A stretch of 23,151 bases of DNA from IMG/VR virus record IMGVR_UViG_3300046318_000397, positions 1-23,151 of that record, one strand, 5' to 3'. Shown one piece after another: positions 1 through 20,656 of the stretch (positions within the stretch are counted from its first letter, which is position 1; each line of letters opens with the position of its first letter). The notes under the pieces were generated by a model. The model was not told the origin of the DNA. It saw only the letters and a program-made list of their open reading frames with translations, and searched no databases. The stretch comes from a virus. Both the position numbers and the translations under genes were made by a program.

Positions 1-3000
1 ATGTTTGCGTCTGCAACAGCACGATAGGCGGCGGAGGCCTCAGTACGGAGGTCGGCAAGTCTGGCCTGCTGGTTCTTGAACCACGTAGCACTACCACCTT
101 GCCCTTTGGGGGCTGTCATGGTCTGGGCAGCCAGGTAGGCGTCCCATGCTTTTGAAGCCTTGCTCTCAAGGTCATCAATAGCTTTAACGCCGGCACTCTT
201 AACTTCGCCGCCCCTAACCTTTGCCTCAGCCTCTGCCAAGGTGAGGCCCGTGCGTCGTAGTTCGTTCAACTTCTCCAAACGTGCAGCTTCATCGTTCAGA
301 GCTTTGATGACGTTGGTGTTATACAGGTCTGTGGCAGTCTGGGCTGTGTCGCTAGACTTGGACCTCCACCAGTCGTAACCTATCCACGCAACAGTAGCCA
401 AACCTACTGCCACGTTCAGGCCGGGGATTAGGCGGGCAAGTCCGAGCATGCCTGCAGCTTTGCCTGCTGTCGCTGCGTTTCCTGCAACGGTCGCTGCAGC
501 CTCTGCCGTTATAGCCGCAGTGTTGCGTACCGTCGCGGCGGTGTAGAGAGCCTTAGCTCCAACCAACACCTCCAAAACAGCTGCAGAACCCATCTGCACA
601 ACCTTCAAGGTTGTGTAGGCAGCGGCTGCGTAGCCAATTGCGGTGAGGTTTTGGCTCAGGACCATGCCCAAGCGGGCAACGCCTTCCACCATAACACTCA
701 AGCCCTGAATAAACTCAGGAGAGGCGAACGTGCGGCGCATGGAGTCCATTGTCACTAGCAAGGCGGGCTCCATCTCGCGGAAGGCCTCGTTCATGCTGGA
801 GCTGATGGTTGCCTTCAGGCTCTTGAACTGGTTTTCTGAAGTCTGCGCCAACTTAGCCGCGCTGATGGACGAAAAACCGTAGTAGTCAGACAACTCAGAC
901 TGCATCTGGGCCAACGCGTTGCCCATAGATTTTCCGGTACGGTCTACTTGAGTGTTGACCATATCCAGCAACTCGATAATGCCCTTGGCACCGCGTTCCG
1001 ACAAAACGGCTTGTAGGAAGTCCTTGCGAGCGGCACCGGTCATTGGGGCCATTTTTTCGTTCAAGTCCGATACAACCTGTATCAGGGGTTTGAAGTTTCC
1101 GTTGACATCCCGGGCCTCAATTCCTACAGATTTAAGGGCCTTAGCCACTGCTTGAGTTCTACCAGACAAGTCCGCATAGGCATTACGCAAGGCCGTACCT
1201 GCTGCTGAACCTTCAATACCTAACTGAGACATTGCAGCAATAGCAGTCGCTGTGTCTTCTAAGGACACCCCATACTGCTTGTGAATTACGGAGGCGGTTT
1301 TCATAGCCTCTGAGAAAGACTCTACGCTAGTGAGAGACATGGCAGACGCCTTAGACACTACGTCCGAGACTTTAGCAAAACCTTCAGCCCCCATACCGAA
1401 CGCCGTCGATACCGTCATCAACGTCTTTGCAGCGGTCTCAATATCTGTCGTACCTGCTACAGAGAAGTCAAGAACTGTCTTAGTCACAGCCAAGATTTCG
1501 TTTGCCTTCAGACCAGCCAAGGACAGGGACTTCATGGCGTTGGCGATTTCTATGGGACCGAACGGCCCCGACTTGCCCATGCGGTCAAGCTCGGCGCTGA
1601 GTCGAGACATCTCCTCAGCAGTGTTGCCGCCCAAGACCTTGATGACTTCCAAGGTGTGCGCTACCTGCATGCCTGTCTTAGCTGTCTGTACGAACCCGTT
1701 GGAGATAGCAGCACCAATGAACAGGGGTCCGAGGTTACCCCATGTCAACCACAGGGCGTTGAAGCCGGAGGCCAGACCGCGAACACCTGAATGCAGGTCG
1801 TTGGCACTGTCATTGGCCCGTCGGAACCCGTCAGACAGTTGCTTGAGGTCGTTCGGTGTAGGCTTAGTCGGGCCTGCTGGTGCTGCTGGAGCCTTAATCG
1901 GTGTCGCCCGCAGTGCGTTGTACGGTGTGTAGGAGCCGACGACTTCGTTGCCCGCGAGACGTTGGCCGGTGGTGCCGGTGTTTGCTCTGCGGGCCTGCTC
2001 GTTGGAAAGCCCCTCTTGCATTTGAGACTTTATCTGGGCTGCCAGAGTCTTCATCTCGTTTCGGTCTGGGACGCCAAGCAGCTTCCGGGTCTCGTCCAGA
2101 TTCATCTTTGTGGCGGAAGAAGCCCGGAGCTTCTCTTTGGAAAGCCCCTCTTGCATTTGAGACTTTATCTGGGCTGCCAGAGTCTTCATCTCGTTTCGGT
2201 CTGGGACGCCAAGCAGCATCCGGGTCTCGTCCAGATTCATCCTTGTCGCGGAGGCAGTGCGGGCGTTGGCAGTAGCCTCGATACGGGCCTGCTCCACCTT
2301 CTTGGCGGCCAGCTTGATAGCCTCAGCCTCTTTAGTGGCCATAGCCCCTATAAGTGCGATTCTGGTCTCGTCGGAGCCGGCCAGCACCTGTCCGCTGCCC
2401 TGTATGCCTTGGCGTACGGTGCCAACGAAGTCTGAGCCATATTTCTTAGTTGCCAGTTTTTCGGCGTCGGCTGACCCGCCCTCCAGCATCCGCCGAATAC
2501 TCTCGGAGCGTTTTTGGATATTCGCCAGCATGCGGCTGGAACCTTGGTCGCTGACCTGTTGCAACGCTGTGTTGGTGTCTGTCGCGTACTTGACATTCAA
2601 CAGCATATCGCGCTCAGATTCAGTCATGCTTTTGCGGCGTGCAGACAAGGCCTCTCGCTCAGCTTGTCTCTTTAGGCCCTCAGCTCTTTGGAATTCCTTT
2701 AGTTGGGCGGCTTGGAACCCTCCAATACCCACCTCCAAGTCTTTCCAGATTTTCAGCTCCTTTGCACTCATCTGACCTATTTTTGCCAACCGATGCTCAT
2801 AAGCATTTTTAAGGGCAGTGGTCTGAGCTCGTACCAGGTTCAGGCTCAGGCCTTCACCGTTAATCTGCTCTTGTAGCAGTTGTTTTTGAGCATCTTTGAA
2901 AGTTCCAGCTATACCCGTATCCCCAATACCCTTCATGGCTTCAGCCATGCGCCCCAAACTCGCTTTAGAGGTCTTGCCCAGACTTGCAAGGTTTGTGTCA

Positions 3001-3245
3001 AACTGGTCCGCGGACTTTATAAAGGTTCCAAACGCCTGCTCGGACGCCTGCACACCCTTCACTAAGGTCGGGGACGCAAAGGTCTTGGCAATGTCCACGC
3101 CTGCCGGTGCGGCAGCTTTCAGCAGGCCTGCGGCCTTAGTGGCGGCTGTGCCTAGCCCCTCGATTGCGGTCGCGCCCCGCTCAAGTGCCTGAATATCTTT
3201 CTCAGGGAAACTGGCATGAAATTCTAGGGTGTTGTCATCACTCAT
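1..3245 (-). CDS. Tape measure protein (3' end beyond the window)
   Basis: This reading frame stays open from an ATG at 3245 to the left edge, giving about 1081 residues with no stop seen. The start has AGGAG seven bases upstream. Tape measure proteins set tail length and line the tail tube. Residues about 1-480 are charged and helical. Residues about 490-770 match the TP901/PhageMin_Tail core, with features such as EIANAMKSLSLAGLKANEIL and GIEGSAAGTALRNAYADLSG. A hydrophobic stretch near residues 936-960 (ARLIPGLNVAVGLATVAWIG) is a likely membrane-active segment. Two 45-codon-period repeats lie around residues 332-414. The gene follows the frameshifted tail chaperones, the standard siphovirus position. 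Family assignment is firm; the C-terminal end is not visible. Confidence 0.93.
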   Translation of the reverse strand, partial: MSDDNTLEFHASFPEKDIQALERGATAIEGLGTAATKAAGLLKAAAPAGVDIAKTFASPTLVKGVQASEQAFGTFIKSADQFDTNLASLGKTSKASLGRMAEAMKGIGDTGIAGTFKDAQKQLLQEQINGEGLSLNLVRAQTTALKNAYEHRLAKIGQMSAKELKIWKDLEVGIGGFQAAQLKEFQRAEGLKRQAEREALSARRKSMTESERDMLLNVKYATDTNTALQQVSDQGSSRMLANIQKRSESIRRMLEGGSADAEKLATKKYGSDFVGTVRQGIQGSGQVLAGSDETRIALIGAMATKEAEAIKLAAKKVEQARIEATANARTASATRMNLDETRMLLGVPDRNEMKTLAAQIKSQMQEGLSKEKLRASSATKMNLDETRKLLGVPDRNEMKTLAAQIKSQMQEGLSNEQARRANTGTTGQRLAGNEVVGSYTPYNALRATPIKAPAAPAGPTKPTPNDLKQLSDGFRRANDSANDLHSGVRGLASGFNALWLTWGNLGPLFIGAAISNGFVQTAKTGMQVAHTLEVIKVLGGNTAEEMSRLSAELDRMGKSGPFGPIEIANAMKSLSLAGLKANEILAVTKTVLDFSVAGTTDIETAAKTLMTVSTAFGMGAEGFAKVSDVVSKASAMSLTSVESFSEAMKTASVIHKQYGVSLEDTATAIAAMSQLGIEGSAAGTALRNAYADLSGRTQAVAKALKSVGIEARDVNGNFKPLIQVVSDLNEKMAPMTGAARKDFLQAVLSERGAKGIIELLDMVNTQVDRTGKSMGNALAQMQSELSDYYGFSSISAAKLAQTSENQFKSLKATISSSMNEAFREMEPALLVTMDSMRRTFASPEFIQGLSVMVEGVARLGMVLSQNLTAIGYAAAAYTTLKVVQMGSAAVLEVLVGAKALYTAATVRNTAAITAEAAATVAGNAATAGKAAGMLGLARLIPGLNVAVGLATVAWIGYDWWRSKSSDTAQTATDLYNTNVIKALNDEAARLEKLNELRRTGLTLAEAEAKVRGGEVKSAGVKAIDDLESKASKAWDAYLAAQTMTAPKGQGGSATWFKNQQARLADLRTEASAAYRAVADAN
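2002..2117 (-). repeat. Tandem repeat copy 2 inside the tape measure gene
   Basis: This 116-base segment is repeated at 2137-2252 with three mismatches that I can count (in the cagctt/cagcat, catctt/catcct and tgtgg/tgtcg contexts). The period is 135 bases, exactly 45 codons, so the reading frame is kept. It encodes NLDETRKLLGVPDRNEMKTL and the residues that follow. Confidence 0.97.
2137..2252 (-). repeat. Tandem repeat copy 1 inside the tape measure gene
   Basis: This is the upstream copy in transcription order of the 135-base-period repeat. It encodes NLDETRMLLGVPDRNEMKTL and the residues that follow, about residues 332-369 of the tape measure protein. The near identity at DNA level, including silent positions, points to a recent duplication. 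Confidence 0.97.
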
Positions 3246-3300: not shown

Positions 3301-4025
3301 CTATTTGGTTTTTTCTGCTTTGAAATTCCTGTACGCCCTGTCCAGTACCTGTACGCCCCACCACAGGTCTTGTGCATCGTAATGCTCGATGCGGTGGTGT
3401 GCGCGGTAGGCGTTGAACTCAACAAGGGTTAGGCTGTTGACCTTTGCCATTGCCGATTGCCTTGTCTCTGACAACTCCCAGAACACCTGCAGCGTGTGCT
3501 GCAAGTAGGTTCTAACCCTAGGCCTGCGCTGCAGGGCGGCGGGACGTATGCCTGAATCTTCCTCGAACTTGAGGAGCTGGTCCAGTGATGGCCCCCACTC
3601 AAGCTCCCAGACCAGGCATTCCTCTAGTTTTTTGCGTCTTCGGCCTCTTGCTCGGCTTTGAAGGACTCAAAGTCTTCGCTCACGGACGAGATGTAACGGC
3701 GGAAATCTTTGACAGCCAACAGGCGTTTGGCGTTCTCTACGCTGTACTCAAGTTTCACGCCCTTGAGTGCTACATTGCCCTTCCAGCCCAAAAGGATTGT
3801 CTTGGCCATGACTTCACCCATCAGACTCTCATTCAAGGCTTCTGCAGCCTCGCCCTTGGCCTCCAGAGCTACCTTGTTGCGCTTGTACATACTAGCTAGC
3901 AAGCGGCTGTACTTGGGGTTACCTGAGCGAGCTACCAAGAAGCTGACGCCATTGCCGTACTCGACCCAGCGGCCTTCTTGTTCGGCTTTTTCATCGACAG
4001 CGAAAGTGGAAAAAATATCTAACAT
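3301..4025 (-). CDS. Tail assembly chaperone, -1 frameshift fusion (G-GT type)
   Basis: This is the predicted long product of the chaperone gene, complement(join(3301..3630,3630..4025)), 241 residues. Ribosomes slipping back one base on A AAA AAC (3633-3627) bypass the TAG at 3626-3624 and continue with LEECLVWELEWGPSLDQLL through to a stop at 3301-3303. The -1 frame is open throughout and adds 108 residues, which include HTLQVFWELSETRQSAM and end in a Lys-rich tail. In lambda, gpG and gpGT are made the same way and chaperone the tape measure during tail assembly. The position directly before the tape measure gene fits. The downstream part has no good independent ATG and ribosome binding site at its beginning, which supports fusion over a separate gene. 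Confidence 0.88.
3568..3615 (-). promoter_or_regulatory. Candidate frameshift-stimulating pseudoknot
   Basis: This lies 11 bases after the slippery site. Stem 1 pairs 3615-3610 with 3582-3577 (6 bp) and stem 2 pairs 3603-3598 with 3573-3568 (6 bp), in H-type order. A competing simple hairpin pairs GGAGCT (3607-3602) with AGCTCC (3578-3573). The spacer is a little longer than usual. The pairings were found by eye and no folding energy was computed. Confidence 0.5.
3624..4025 (-). CDS. Tail assembly chaperone, short form (G type)
   Basis: This is a 133-residue protein starting MLDIFSTFAVDEKAEQEG and ending EAEDAKN at TAG. I place the start at 4025 because AAGGA lies a few bases upstream in the spacing expected for a ribosome binding site; an in-frame ATG at 4076 has no such site and lies just after the terminator. 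The protein is charged and mostly helical, with the size of lambda gpG (about 14 kDa). It lies between the tail tube and tape measure genes, the diagnostic slot for siphovirus tail chaperones. Its last sense codons form the slippery sequence. Function is from position, size and the frameshift signal, not from a conserved motif. Confidence 0.85.
   Translation of the reverse strand: MLDIFSTFAVDEKAEQEGRWVEYGNGVSFLVARSGNPKYSRLLASMYKRNKVALEAKGEAAEALNESLMGEVMAKTILLGWKGNVALKGVKLEYSVENAKRLLAVKDFRRYISSVSEDFESFKAEQEAEDAKN
3627..3633 (-). other. Slippery heptamer A AAA AAC for -1 frameshifting
   Basis: In the zero frame the codons are GCA AAA AAC TAG, so the heptamer A AAA AAC fits X XXY YYZ exactly, one codon before the stop. 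Both decoding tRNAs can re-pair after a one-base backward slip. Downstream, minus-strand arms CTGGTC (3615-3610) and GACCAG (3582-3577) can form stem 1, while CTTGAG (3603-3598) and CTCAAG (3573-3568) can form stem 2 of an H-type pseudoknot. Confidence 0.88.
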
Positions 4026-4145: not shown

Positions 4146-5360
4146 TTAGACTGCTGCCGCGCCAAAAGCGTCGATAAAGACTACCTTCTGCAAGGTAGCG
4201 TCTGCATTAGCAGCATCCCGTAGAGCGGTGAACTGTACGTCAGCCATCATGTCAGCATCCTTGCCTCCGGCGGTAATCTGGTAAGAAGAAATATTGACCA
4301 CAGGCAAGGAGAACACGTAGCCATTACCTGCACCGTCCATGGTAGAGAACGCCAACGATGTGTTGGTGTTAGCCACAAACTTGTCGAACAAGGTCTTGTC
4401 AGCAAAGTAGATGGACATGGAGCCGGTCAAAGAGATGGTGCCGCTACCGATGCCTACGCTACCCAGAGTGCAAAGGGCATCTTGCTCGCGCAGGGCGTTG
4501 TCATAGTCCAAGCTCAAGGACTTGACGAAAGTGCTGGACAGCGGTGTGCCGCCTTCCCACACTTGGCAGGAGCTGCCGGTCACGCCGGACTGGATGTCAA
4601 ACGAGTAGCTCGCCGTAGGGGTGCCGGGCAGGGCAGTCGCTGTGGTCATTGCAGCAGCCTTACCCATGAACGAGAAGTTGATGGTAGACAGGTTTCCAGA
4701 CTGGATGGAGATAGCCATCTTGCTAGGTGTCATACCTGTGAACGCCTCAAACACGCCCACGTCAGTCATGTTCTTCTCAATGGTGTAAGAAGTCTGGGTA
4801 ATGCCATGGCTCAAGCGGCGAGTCTGCACGGAGCAGGTTGCTACAGCACTGCCGACGGTTGCGGGAGTCCCGGCATCCAAGGTGATGACCGTGGAGGTGG
4901 GGGCCACGGTAGAGCTAACACGGAACAGCTTGCCGTTGTTGCCGCCGCCGGTAGTCAAACGGAACCACTGGCCGCGCTTCAAGTTTGTGAAGGCGCTGGT
5001 CGTGGTGGGGGCCACAGACGCGGTGATAGTCGTTGCAGTGAAGTCAGCAGTGAAGGTTGTACCGACGCCAGCAGTACCGTACACCGCGAAGGTGCTTTGC
5101 AGTGTGGACTCCATGAAGCGGTCATACTCGCGGTACTGCATTTCGCCGTTGAGGTCGCCAGAGGCTTTAGCGCCTGTGGGAATCATCGAAGAGATAGTGC
5201 GAGTGGAGTTGATTTCGGTAGACATCGCCTTGGTGATGTCGTAGTTCAGGCTCTCGCCAGTAATACGGACTTCGAGAGGGTTACCCGCGACAGGGGTTAC
5301 GCCGAAGGTTACTTCGGGGATATAGCGTACTTGTACAGCACTGGAACTTGCGAGAGGCAT
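4146..5360 (-). CDS. Major tail (tube) protein
   Basis: This 404-residue protein polymerises into the tail tube. The N-terminus (VRYIPEVTFGVTP, then EVRITGESLNYD and STEINSTRTI) is the typical opening of siphovirus tube proteins, with a matching beta-rich C-terminal half (LSLDYDNALREQDAL, ADVQFTALRDA). The usual size is about 150-300 residues; here a Thr/Val-rich stretch at about residues 90-185 (containing LKRGQWFRLTTGGGNNGKLF) looks like an inserted beta domain. AGGAG precedes the ATG at 5360. The gene has a candidate promoter upstream and a strong terminator downstream, so it may be made at its own level. Confidence 0.88.
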   Translation of the reverse strand: MPLASSSAVQVRYIPEVTFGVTPVAGNPLEVRITGESLNYDITKAMSTEINSTRTISSMIPTGAKASGDLNGEMQYREYDRFMESTLQSTFAVYGTAGVGTTFTADFTATTITASVAPTTTSAFTNLKRGQWFRLTTGGGNNGKLFRVSSTVAPTSTVITLDAGTPATVGSAVATCSVQTRRLSHGITQTSYTIEKNMTDVGVFEAFTGMTPSKMAISIQSGNLSTINFSFMGKAAAMTTATALPGTPTASYSFDIQSGVTGSSCQVWEGGTPLSSTFVKSLSLDYDNALREQDALCTLGSVGIGSGTISLTGSMSIYFADKTLFDKFVANTNTSLAFSTMDGAGNGYVFSLPVVNISSYQITAGGKDADMMADVQFTALRDAANADATLQKVVFIDAFGAAAV

Positions 5361-7806: not shown

Positions 7807-8301
7807 ATGGAAAAACGAAAGATCAGAATCGAAGGCGAAATTGCATATGTACCACTACCTGACGGTACAGAGGCAACCATAGACGCTGAGGATGCGGAAT
7901 CAGTAGGACAGCATAATTGGTGCCTTGGCAATGGCTACGTAGTGACATTCCTGCCTCGCGTAAACGGCAAACAAAAGACGCTCAGACTGCACAGACTTGT
8001 CATGGGCGAGCCGGAAGGAAAGATGGTAGACCATCGAAATGGCAATCCACTTGAGAATCGTAAAGCCTTTTTGAGACCGGCGACGAATGCGCAGAACCAA
8101 TACAACCAAGGAATTCCAAGCCACAACACATCAGGCCATAAAGGCGTAGGCTGGAACAAAGCCTGCAAGAAATGGCAAGCCCGAATCAAGCACGAAGGCA
8201 AGCAAATACACCTAGGACTCTTCACAGACCTCGAAGAAGCTTCTAAAGCGTATCGAGAAGCTGCCCTAAAGTACCACGGCGAATTCGCCAGAACAGAATA
8301 G
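7807..8301 (+). CDS. HNH/AP2 homing endonuclease-like protein, opposite strand
   Basis: This 164-residue protein is the only gene recognised on the plus strand. Residues about 58-100 form an HNH_3-type nuclease motif: LHRLVMG, VDHRNGNP (D75, H76) and NAQN (N97). Residues about 108-160 form an AP2 DNA-binding domain (SGHKGVGWNKACKKWQARI, then HLGLFTDLEEASKAYREAA). This combination is typical of free-standing phage mobile endonucleases that nick DNA and spread themselves. The Asn expected 12 residues after H76 is Phe88 here, so activity is doubtful. TACAAT at 7779-7784 could be a -10 element but no convincing -35 is seen and the ribosome binding site is weak. It converges with a minus-strand gene on a shared terminator. 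Confidence 0.9.
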   Translation: MEKRKIRIEGEIAYVPLPDGTEATIDAEDAESVGQHNWCLGNGYVVTFLPRVNGKQKTLRLHRLVMGEPEGKMVDHRNGNPLENRKAFLRPATNAQNQYNQGIPSHNTSGHKGVGWNKACKKWQARIKHEGKQIHLGLFTDLEEASKAYREAALKYHGEFARTE

Positions 8302-18500: not shown

Positions 18501-19958
18501 TTACGGCTTTTTGGCTGGACCCTTTGGCTGCTGAGGTGTTGTGGGGTCCATAGTAGAAGTCCCGCTGGCCGGATTTGCAATCGGTGCTTGTGCCTGCGTA
18601 CTGCGGAACATGGTGCCGCTCTTGGGTGTGTAACCTGCTGGAGGCAACTGGCCGGTGAGTTTTAGGGATGCTTCGTTATCGTCCAGTAGGCCTAGAGACA
18701 ACAGGTCAAGGATGCGTGACTGCTCCATACTCTTGAAGGCCTCAAGTTCCTTGGCTGGGCGCAGGTCAAGTTCCTCGTAAGCGAATTCGACGTAGCCGTC
18801 TACGCCCATGATACGGATGGCCACTGTCAAGGCTCGGCTGTAGACCTCGTTCAATTTCCGGCGCAGCATGTCCGCTGACTTGAGGTACAGCAAGGACTCT
18901 GTTGAGCTGGCATTGGCAGAGCTGCCGAAGCCAAGTGCCACTGGCAAGGTCTTCACGCCCGACGCTAACTTTGCGTTCAAGACCTTCTGTACTTGTTCTA
19001 GGATGTCGCCAGGGCTGTGGCCTCCGTCTAAGTAGGTGTATGACACCATATCGAATGACACTAAAGCGTCTTCTGGATTTAGACCGTTAACTACGCTCTG
19101 TACTGCAGAAATAACAGTGTTCTGGTATGTTGCCCATTTCTCGGGGTCTGCTAGAATCTCTGGCGGGGTGAGTCTCTTGAGCTTCTCGGAGTCTATGCTG
19201 GCAGACAATCGTGGCAAGATGGCCCGCTTTAACACCCTAGACATGTCTTGGTTAAAATCTATATCAGCGATAATCGCTTTAATGCTGGATTCTAACGGGC
19301 TAGTCGGGTGTAACTGGCTGGATGACTGATCTATGCTGGTATAAATTACAGTGGCGAGGTCCAGAGAGATTTCATCTCCACCTACTTTCTGGGCTAGTCT
19401 GAACGAATTATCTTCCTCGTAAAATACCAGGGTTGGGGGCGCAATCACGTTCAAGCTGGCTGGAATGCGGGCCTTGTCGAGGGCCACCTCAAGACAAGCC
19501 GCACCTTCTAGGAGTAAGTCTCTGGCCAAGGTTTCGCTGAGCGACTGGAGCCCTTGTTGAGGGCCGAATGAGCCGTCAGCTGCGCCGAGGTAGGTCAAGC
19601 GGCGTAGGAGTTCGTGCGCAAGCGCTGTGGCGTTTGCGTCTACTTTTCCGTCAAGGTCACGGCCTATCACGGTGAAACGTTCGGGAATGCCTGTGCGGAT
19701 TGCCAGGTAAATGGCTGCGGACAGCTCTGCGCTTTGAACTGAGGCTTCCCGCAAGACTTGGGACGTGGTTGAGCGGCTGCGTAAGTCTGTTAGTCGGTCG
19801 AGAGACTTCAGGTTACGCTCTGTGCGGGTCTTAGCGCTAGCACTAGGAGTTACGTTGGTGCGATACCCTCCGTAGGATACCGGTGCGTTCGGGGCCTTTG
19901 GGAGAGGCGGGGGCGTGAGGGTTGCGGCTTGGAAGAGATTTTTTAGGGATTCAAACAT
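18501..19958 (-). CDS. Portal protein
   Basis: This is a 485-residue protein starting MFESLKNLFQAATLTPPPLP. I chose the ATG at 19958 because GGAG lies at good spacing; an in-frame ATG at 20093 would give a basic, proline-rich leader inside the HNH gene. Portal proteins form the 12-fold ring through which DNA enters and leaves the head. Recognisable parts are SAAIYLAIRTGIPERFTVI, LARDLLLEGAACLEVALDK, IAPPTLVFYEEDNSFRLAQK, SPLESSIKAIIADIDFNQDM (a typical wing/stem segment) and LRRKLNEVYSRALTVAIRIM. The C-terminus (about 40 residues) is Pro/Thr/Lys-rich. Its first codons overlap the end of the HNH gene by 16 bases. Confidence 0.86.
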   Translation of the reverse strand: MFESLKNLFQAATLTPPPLPKAPNAPVSYGGYRTNVTPSASAKTRTERNLKSLDRLTDLRSRSTTSQVLREASVQSAELSAAIYLAIRTGIPERFTVIGRDLDGKVDANATALAHELLRRLTYLGAADGSFGPQQGLQSLSETLARDLLLEGAACLEVALDKARIPASLNVIAPPTLVFYEEDNSFRLAQKVGGDEISLDLATVIYTSIDQSSSQLHPTSPLESSIKAIIADIDFNQDMSRVLKRAILPRLSASIDSEKLKRLTPPEILADPEKWATYQNTVISAVQSVVNGLNPEDALVSFDMVSYTYLDGGHSPGDILEQVQKVLNAKLASGVKTLPVALGFGSSANASSTESLLYLKSADMLRRKLNEVYSRALTVAIRIMGVDGYVEFAYEELDLRPAKELEAFKSMEQSRILDLLSLGLLDDNEASLKLTGQLPPAGYTPKSGTMFRSTQAQAPIANPASGTSTMDPTTPQQPKGPAKKP

Positions 19959-20656
19959 GGGGGCTCCGGGGTTTGGGGCGATTCTAGCAGAGGTTCTTGA
20001 AAATCGGTGGATTCGAGGGCGCGTGGGATGGACCAGCCGTAACCGTGGATACGCTGGTGGACTCGTTTGTAATTGAGGCCCGTTAGCTCGCACGCCTCGG
20101 CAAGACTTACGTTGCGTCCTTGGTACGCGATTAGGCGGTTTCTGCGCGTGTTGCGGTTTTGTTCTGTTCGGGTCGCCCAGACACAGTTAGCAGGCGAGTA
20201 GCCTAAGTTGTTGTCCTCCCTCTCTAAACTAAGTTCCGGACTATAAGTTGGGTACATGTCTTCAACAAAATTCTCGACTGAGTGCCATCGCTCACAAACG
20301 GTTATGCCTCGACCACCCCAATCGGCAAACCTCTCGGATTTTTGGTCGTAGCAGCGCCGCATCATTTGGTAGTGTATATTGTATAGTGGATGCCCGTGCC
20401 ACCCATGCGTAGCGTTTGCCCGCCCGTTTGCGGCTGCAGCCTCTCGCCGGTAACACCCGCAGCTGATGCTATTGCCGTTGCGCAGGCTGCTCAACCTCAC
20501 CTGCCGCACCTCCCCGCAGTCGCAGCGGACCACCCACCTAGAACGCCCCTGCCCCGCCACCTCCTCCACAAGGGTCAGCCTGCCGTACCGGTCGCCCGGC
20601 AAGTTGGGGTCGCGCCCTGTAGGGGGAATACGGAATGGAAAATTAGCGTTAAACAT
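19943..20656 (-). CDS. HNH-type homing endonuclease-like protein between terminase and portal
   Basis: This is a 237-residue protein starting MFNANFPFRIPPTGRDPNLP. Residues about 20-70 hold a zinc-finger-like region GDRYGRLTLVEEV...VVRCDCGEV...SCGCYRRE (C45, C47, C66, C68). Residues about 90-125 hold PLYNIHYQMMRRCYD and WGGRGITVCERW. Residues about 142-170 hold SLEREDNNLGYSPANCVWAT and EQNRN, the common HNH-like phage motif. Residues about 175-213 resemble a DNA-binding repeat (SLAEACELTGLNYKRVHQRI). In this family the usual catalytic His appears as Arg (LERED), so nuclease activity is uncertain. Such genes move between phages. It has AAGG near the start, its own candidate promoter and leader hairpin. 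Confidence 0.85.
   Translation of the reverse strand: MFNANFPFRIPPTGRDPNLPGDRYGRLTLVEEVAGQGRSRWVVRCDCGEVRQVRLSSLRNGNSISCGCYRREAAAANGRANATHGWHGHPLYNIHYQMMRRCYDQKSERFADWGGRGITVCERWHSVENFVEDMYPTYSPELSLEREDNNLGYSPANCVWATRTEQNRNTRRNRLIAYQGRNVSLAEACELTGLNYKRVHQRIHGYGWSIPRALESTDFQEPLLESPQTPEPPCLNP

Follow-up and report, generated by a model that had tools for sequence, protein, structure and literature searches.

Analysis of a 23,151-base virus record (the window, i.e., the whole stretch of DNA that was analysed) points with high confidence to a siphovirus-like phage whose tail assembly chaperone gene uses a programmed −1 ribosomal frameshift of the lambda G/GT type; this reading is directly supported by the frames, the heptamer and its conservation, selection, synteny, and family membership. 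The window, a fragment, encodes terminase, portal, protease, head, connector, and tail proteins, mostly from the minus strand, where the features of the site also lie. The short chaperone frame (3624–4025, minus strand, 133 aa), with a putative role like that of lambda gpG, runs from an ATG at 4025–4023, preceded by a good ribosome-binding sequence (AAGGA), to a TAG at 3626–3624, and its 3′ end reads GCA AAA AAC TAG. The slippery heptamer A AAA AAC (3627–3633, minus strand, read from 3633 to 3627) thus adjoins the 0-frame stop and has the canonical X XXY YYZ phase. The lambda T-like extension in the −1 frame (3301–3627, minus strand) begins with CTA at 3627 and continues for 108 codons without a stop to a TAG at 3303–3301; joined to the chaperone, it gives a product of about 241 aa. 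These positions agreed throughout with those given in a preliminary description of the DNA. Since the earliest ATG, GTG, or TTG of the extension is a TTG at codon 42, a plain ORF list begins the extension at 3504. In the 6,592 codons of the window’s main minus-strand genes, seven in-frame XXXYYYZ heptamers (Y being A or T) were counted, one of them AAAAAAC, which sits at the chaperone end. As a chance control, 74 AAAAAACTAR matches in IMG/VR (chance matches; the family search pattern was offset by 2 nt) were inspected, and none had both an upstream ORF of at least 80 aa ending there and a −1 extension of at least 50 codons.

Both frames were assigned to tail chaperone families. The short frame matched PHROG 313 (tail assembly chaperone, E = 6.6e-19) and PHROG 8233 (E = 8.8e-14), and its homologues carry the annotation tail assembly chaperone. 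Within the 271 positions of PHROG 8233, the chaperone aligned to 4–139 and the extension to 139–250, so that the match was contiguous over both halves. The extension additionally matched PHROG 3817 (tail chaperonin) and, above the cut-off, Pfam PF23812 (Phage_TAC_18). It was modelled by AlphaFold2 as an all-helical domain with confident scores (pLDDT 87.6), and the chaperone with moderate ones (79.0). Among viral structures, the fold of the extension was matched best by the 262-aa fused chaperone of Loki (TM 0.75 by query), and further viral matches included the chaperones of Seurat and CcrColossus, at modest E-values (0.008 and above); the Loki, Seurat (268 aa), and CcrColossus chaperones are each deposited as one long protein. 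Fold searches of the PDB with the chaperone and extension models, as well as a PDB sequence search, returned no significant match. On the 3′ side lies the tail tape measure gene (1–3245, minus strand; ATG 3245, running off the window; PHROG 1533, E = 8.7e-49; Pfam PhageMin_Tail, E = 1.9e-41). The gene directly upstream (4146–5360, minus strand; PHROG 290, E = 1.9e-54) is labelled minor tail protein by PHROGs, and its position, as in relatives, marks its product as the major tail (tube) protein. The order tube, chaperone pair, tape measure is the V – G/GT – H order of lambda.

Several other elements were recorded in this neighbourhood. A hairpin with a T-run resembling an intrinsic terminator (4112–4085, minus strand) lies between the tail tube and chaperone genes and may govern how much tube protein is made relative to chaperone and tape measure; shuffled sequences gave such sites no less often. 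An inverted repeat (3307–3278) directly follows the extension stop ahead of the tape measure start, and a GCCAG..CTGGC hairpin with a T-rich tail was seen at the corresponding position in L002, L004, L006, and L112. The tape measure gene holds an in-frame 135-nt tandem duplication of 45 codons (1990–2259, 92% identical), possibly a recent change of tail length. A homing endonuclease-like gene (HNH_3 and AP2-like; 7807–8301, plus strand) is oriented opposite to the structural genes. Between terminase and portal, a 237-aa ORF (19943–20656, minus strand) overlaps the listed start of the portal frame; by eye it resembles an HNH-type protein, and a Pfam search with it was without match.

For comparison, relatives were collected, beginning with eight IMG/VR loci (53–92% identity), then L014, then L111 and L112. 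A AAA AAC stands directly ahead of the stop in all of L002–L009, L014, L111, and L112, the stop varying among TAG, TAA, and TGA, and the heptamer is invariant among relatives at 45–92% identity. The comparison was extended to cultured phages at about 30% identity. Among these, A AAA AAC was found in NP1, VPv62, DoCa3, and AH03; G GGA AAC in R5C, Bajun, RcThunderbird, Xp15, Mwe-JY26, and RpAliso; the lambda heptamer G GGA AAG in the Vibrio phages 264E42.1 and K120; and A AAA AAA in SHOU24 and phivp505. Every phage with one of these four heptamers has, past the site, a stretch of more than 100 codons without a stop in the −1 frame. The homologue in the distant phage Lana also has an open −1 frame; no canonical heptamer was recognised in it. 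Codon-level conservation, proposed earlier as a check, was accordingly seen as retention of the heptamer among the closer sequences and its exchange for other canonical heptamers farther out. A scan of genome contigs for relatives found none, and a tblastn search against phages with the extension alone gave no match. Dissimilar-looking gene pairs ending in A AAA AAC TAA, with a −1 frame that continues for more than 100 codons, were also noticed in L106 (near 3652), L110 (minus strand), and L108 (near 1666); two of them have CxxC motifs, and they are possible further frameshift pairs.

These relatives also bear on explanations other than ribosomal slippage. The record is a metagenomic contig whose break falls at a homopolymer, which would suit a sequencing error or a decayed gene; the break is, however, shared with at least seven other contigs carrying many synonymous substitutions and with cultured phages, and by the relatives that keep it this explanation is refuted, its probability being negligible. 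Slippage of RNA polymerase on the A6 run, adding an A, would make the fusion without ribosomal frameshifting. The junction does have six adenines, a run that is short for polymerase slippage, and homologous junctions read G_GGA_AAC or G_GGA_AAG, without an A run of that length. The codon phase of the heptamer is, moreover, strictly conserved, and even though transcriptional slippage is employed by some bacterial genes (PMC5009743), it is an improbable source of the fusion here.

A second frame expressed as a gene of its own, by reinitiation or coupling past the TAG, would agree with the deposits of several relatives, in which it is listed as a separate, late-starting ORF. Against this, the window's frame has no ATG, GTG, or TTG before codon 42, and in the relatives the first one falls at varying codons from 15 to 46, whereas conserved sequence starts at the heptamer. 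Furthermore, the halves are joined in PHROG 8233 and in the Loki and Seurat chaperones, and a separate gene is considered very unlikely. Joined genes have been deposited for AH03 and RcThunderbird. In the deposits of NP1, Lana, and Xp15, the second frame is misannotated as a late-starting orphan, which is the short, mid-domain annotation that the preliminary description had predicted. Relatives with no slippery site and with separate good starts, which that description had named as evidence against its own reading, were looked for; no consistent start was seen, and Lana alone lacked a recognised canonical heptamer.

Selection was assessed on five distinct close sequences, with dN/dS taken only where dS could be estimated. 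The ratio was 0.05–0.20 for the extension and 0.02–0.13 for the chaperone, and the extension region contained no stops in the frame of the extension and two to nine in the other frames. These substitution patterns show that purifying selection acts strongly on the −1 frame. Synonymous changes fell to 0.32 of expectation around codon 130 at the chaperone end (z = −4.5, 11 codons considered together), and their rate recovered over roughly the first ten codons of the extension; a dip of this kind at the junction is what a cis-acting recoding signal should produce. The core of the earlier claim, a lambda G/GT-like −1 frameshift joining two chaperone frames, is hence upheld by the family matches over both halves, synteny, purifying selection, and heptamers that are kept or swapped.

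A nested two-stem hairpin (3549–3618, minus strand), beginning 8 nt past the heptamer, was predicted as 3′ stimulator from folding and from pairing in relatives. In the window, its outer stem pairs 3618–3609 with 3559–3549 (UGCCUGGUCU/AGAUUCAGGCA) and its inner stem 3606–3598 with 3573–3565 (GAGCUUGAG/CUCAAGUUC). Downstream folding exceeded that of synonymous-codon shuffles in the window (p = 0.020) as well as in L002, L004, L006, L007, and L009; measured against plain dinucleotide shuffles, the window reached a z of only −1.67. Across the window’s clade, 94.5% of the cells of the nested hairpin were paired, compared with 17–46% for slid versions. Among the five close sequences, there were no double compensatory changes in the hairpin, changes occurring on one side only. 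L009 and L014 form an outer stem of 10–11 bp from the same codons with other letters, in a register shifted by 3 nt. A covariation count over seven sequences looked better and was set aside, L009 and L014 pairing in another register. An Rfam search gave no match.

The preliminary description had proposed that the downstream arms can form an H-type pseudoknot. Such a fold can be drawn in the window (stem 1, CTGGTCTGG/CTGGACCAG; stem 2, GAGCTTGAG/CTCAAGTTC), and to that extent the proposal stood; it was rejected on stem 1, which is not kept in relatives. In close relatives, stem 1 was paired in 57.8% of cells and stem 2, which the nested hairpin has as its inner stem, in 100%; the full stem 1 exists in the window alone, and the loops of 0, 12, and 3 nt look strained. 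Of the two predicted stimulators, the nested hairpin is therefore the better-supported one, and the predicted hairpin of the window’s clade is what is slightly new here.

A Shine-Dalgarno-like GAGG (3644–3647, minus strand), separated from the heptamer by 10 nt, was considered as a possible 5′ stimulator. It occupies the identical position in 12 of 12 sequences of the window’s A_AAA_AAC group, and its distance falls inside the 9–14 nt at which such elements lie upstream of −1 sites (PMC5009743). Because the gene has comparable motifs in other places, its role as a stimulator is suggestive only. Taken by itself, A_AAA_AAC shifts far less readily in E. coli than A_AAA_AAG does (PMC5009743), and the window’s heptamer would for this reason lean on the predicted stimulators. 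It is conceivable, if slightly doubtful, that the weak A_AAA_AAC is tuned by a dnaX-like pair, in which an internal Shine-Dalgarno sequence lies 10 nt ahead of it and the re-registered nested hairpin 8 nt past it; the hairpin would then shift by one codon in register between lineages while the encoded protein is kept. The E. coli dnaX cassette combines A_AAA_AAG with an upstream Shine-Dalgarno-like element and a downstream stem-loop, works at about 50% efficiency, and yields a shortened product. The A-rich heptamer and the predicted stem-loop are common to dnaX and the window, the GAGG may be a counterpart of the upstream element, and the two belong to separate families. A stable stem-loop a few nucleotides downstream is found in the window as a prediction, by the synonymous-shuffle null and by the paired cells.

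Under the ribosomal frameshift reading, the majority of ribosomes would stop at the TAG and release the 133-aa chaperone, and a minority would slip one base back on A_AAA_AAC to make the fusion, aided by the hairpin and perhaps also by the GAGG. By analogy with lambda gpGT, the all-helical C-terminal domain of the fusion would link the complex of tape measure and chaperone to the tail tube protein. We infer here the slippage itself, its efficiency, and the stimulator roles, as well as, by homology with lambda G/GT, the protein function. The junction peptide would be NLEECLVWELEWGPSLDQLLK (Asn) after tandem slippage and LEECLVWELEWGPSLDQLLK (after Lys) after P-site slippage, so that Asn or Lys at the junction would distinguish the two.

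The programmed −1 frameshift of phage lambda G/GT was reportedly described by Levin in 1993 and by Xu, Hendrix and Duda in 2004, and PMC5009743 reviews it. Lambda makes gpG and gpGT at about 30:1, and the mechanism is widely conserved in long-tailed phages (PMC5009743); efficiencies of 6–7% were measured at HK97-like chaperone sites (PMC3711429). The window differs from lambda in its A_AAA_AAC in place of GGGAAAG, in the predicted 3′ hairpin, and in its chaperone family. The preliminary description had drawn the first of these contrasts, which holds no novelty, as A_AAA_AAC has been published at the tail chaperone gene of several phages. The pre-tape measure chaperones of the phiCbK group use AAAAAAC and that of Colossus GGGAAAC (PMC3556154), i.e., the heptamer lies at the corresponding gene and is exchanged with GGGAAAC between relatives, as in the window’s family; these are, however, giant Caulobacter phages with only distant protein similarity. 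In Acinetobacter phage Loki, AAAAAAC adjoins the stop of gp12/gp13 (PMC5313236), as it does in the window, and the Loki chaperone, best viral fold match of the extension, is about 15% identical to it in the fold alignment. Erwinia phage AH03 (gp45/gp46) has a 28% identical chaperone that reads GCA AAA AAC TAA and is deposited joined; unlike the window, it is without a strong Shine-Dalgarno-like GAGG and without a significant downstream fold. A_AAA_AAC has also been reported at the tail chaperone gene of HCTV-2 (PMC5009743) and possibly in the Dragolir chaperone (PMC6003738).

The finding is true and ordinary, because the mechanism is textbook and the slip site is already known at the tail chaperone gene, and the understanding of phage tail assembly is unchanged by it. 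What it corrects is annotation, since gene prediction programs would overlook the 241-aa fusion or list a truncated orphan. It also contributes a clade for comparing a predicted hairpin stimulator and the exchange of canonical heptamers.
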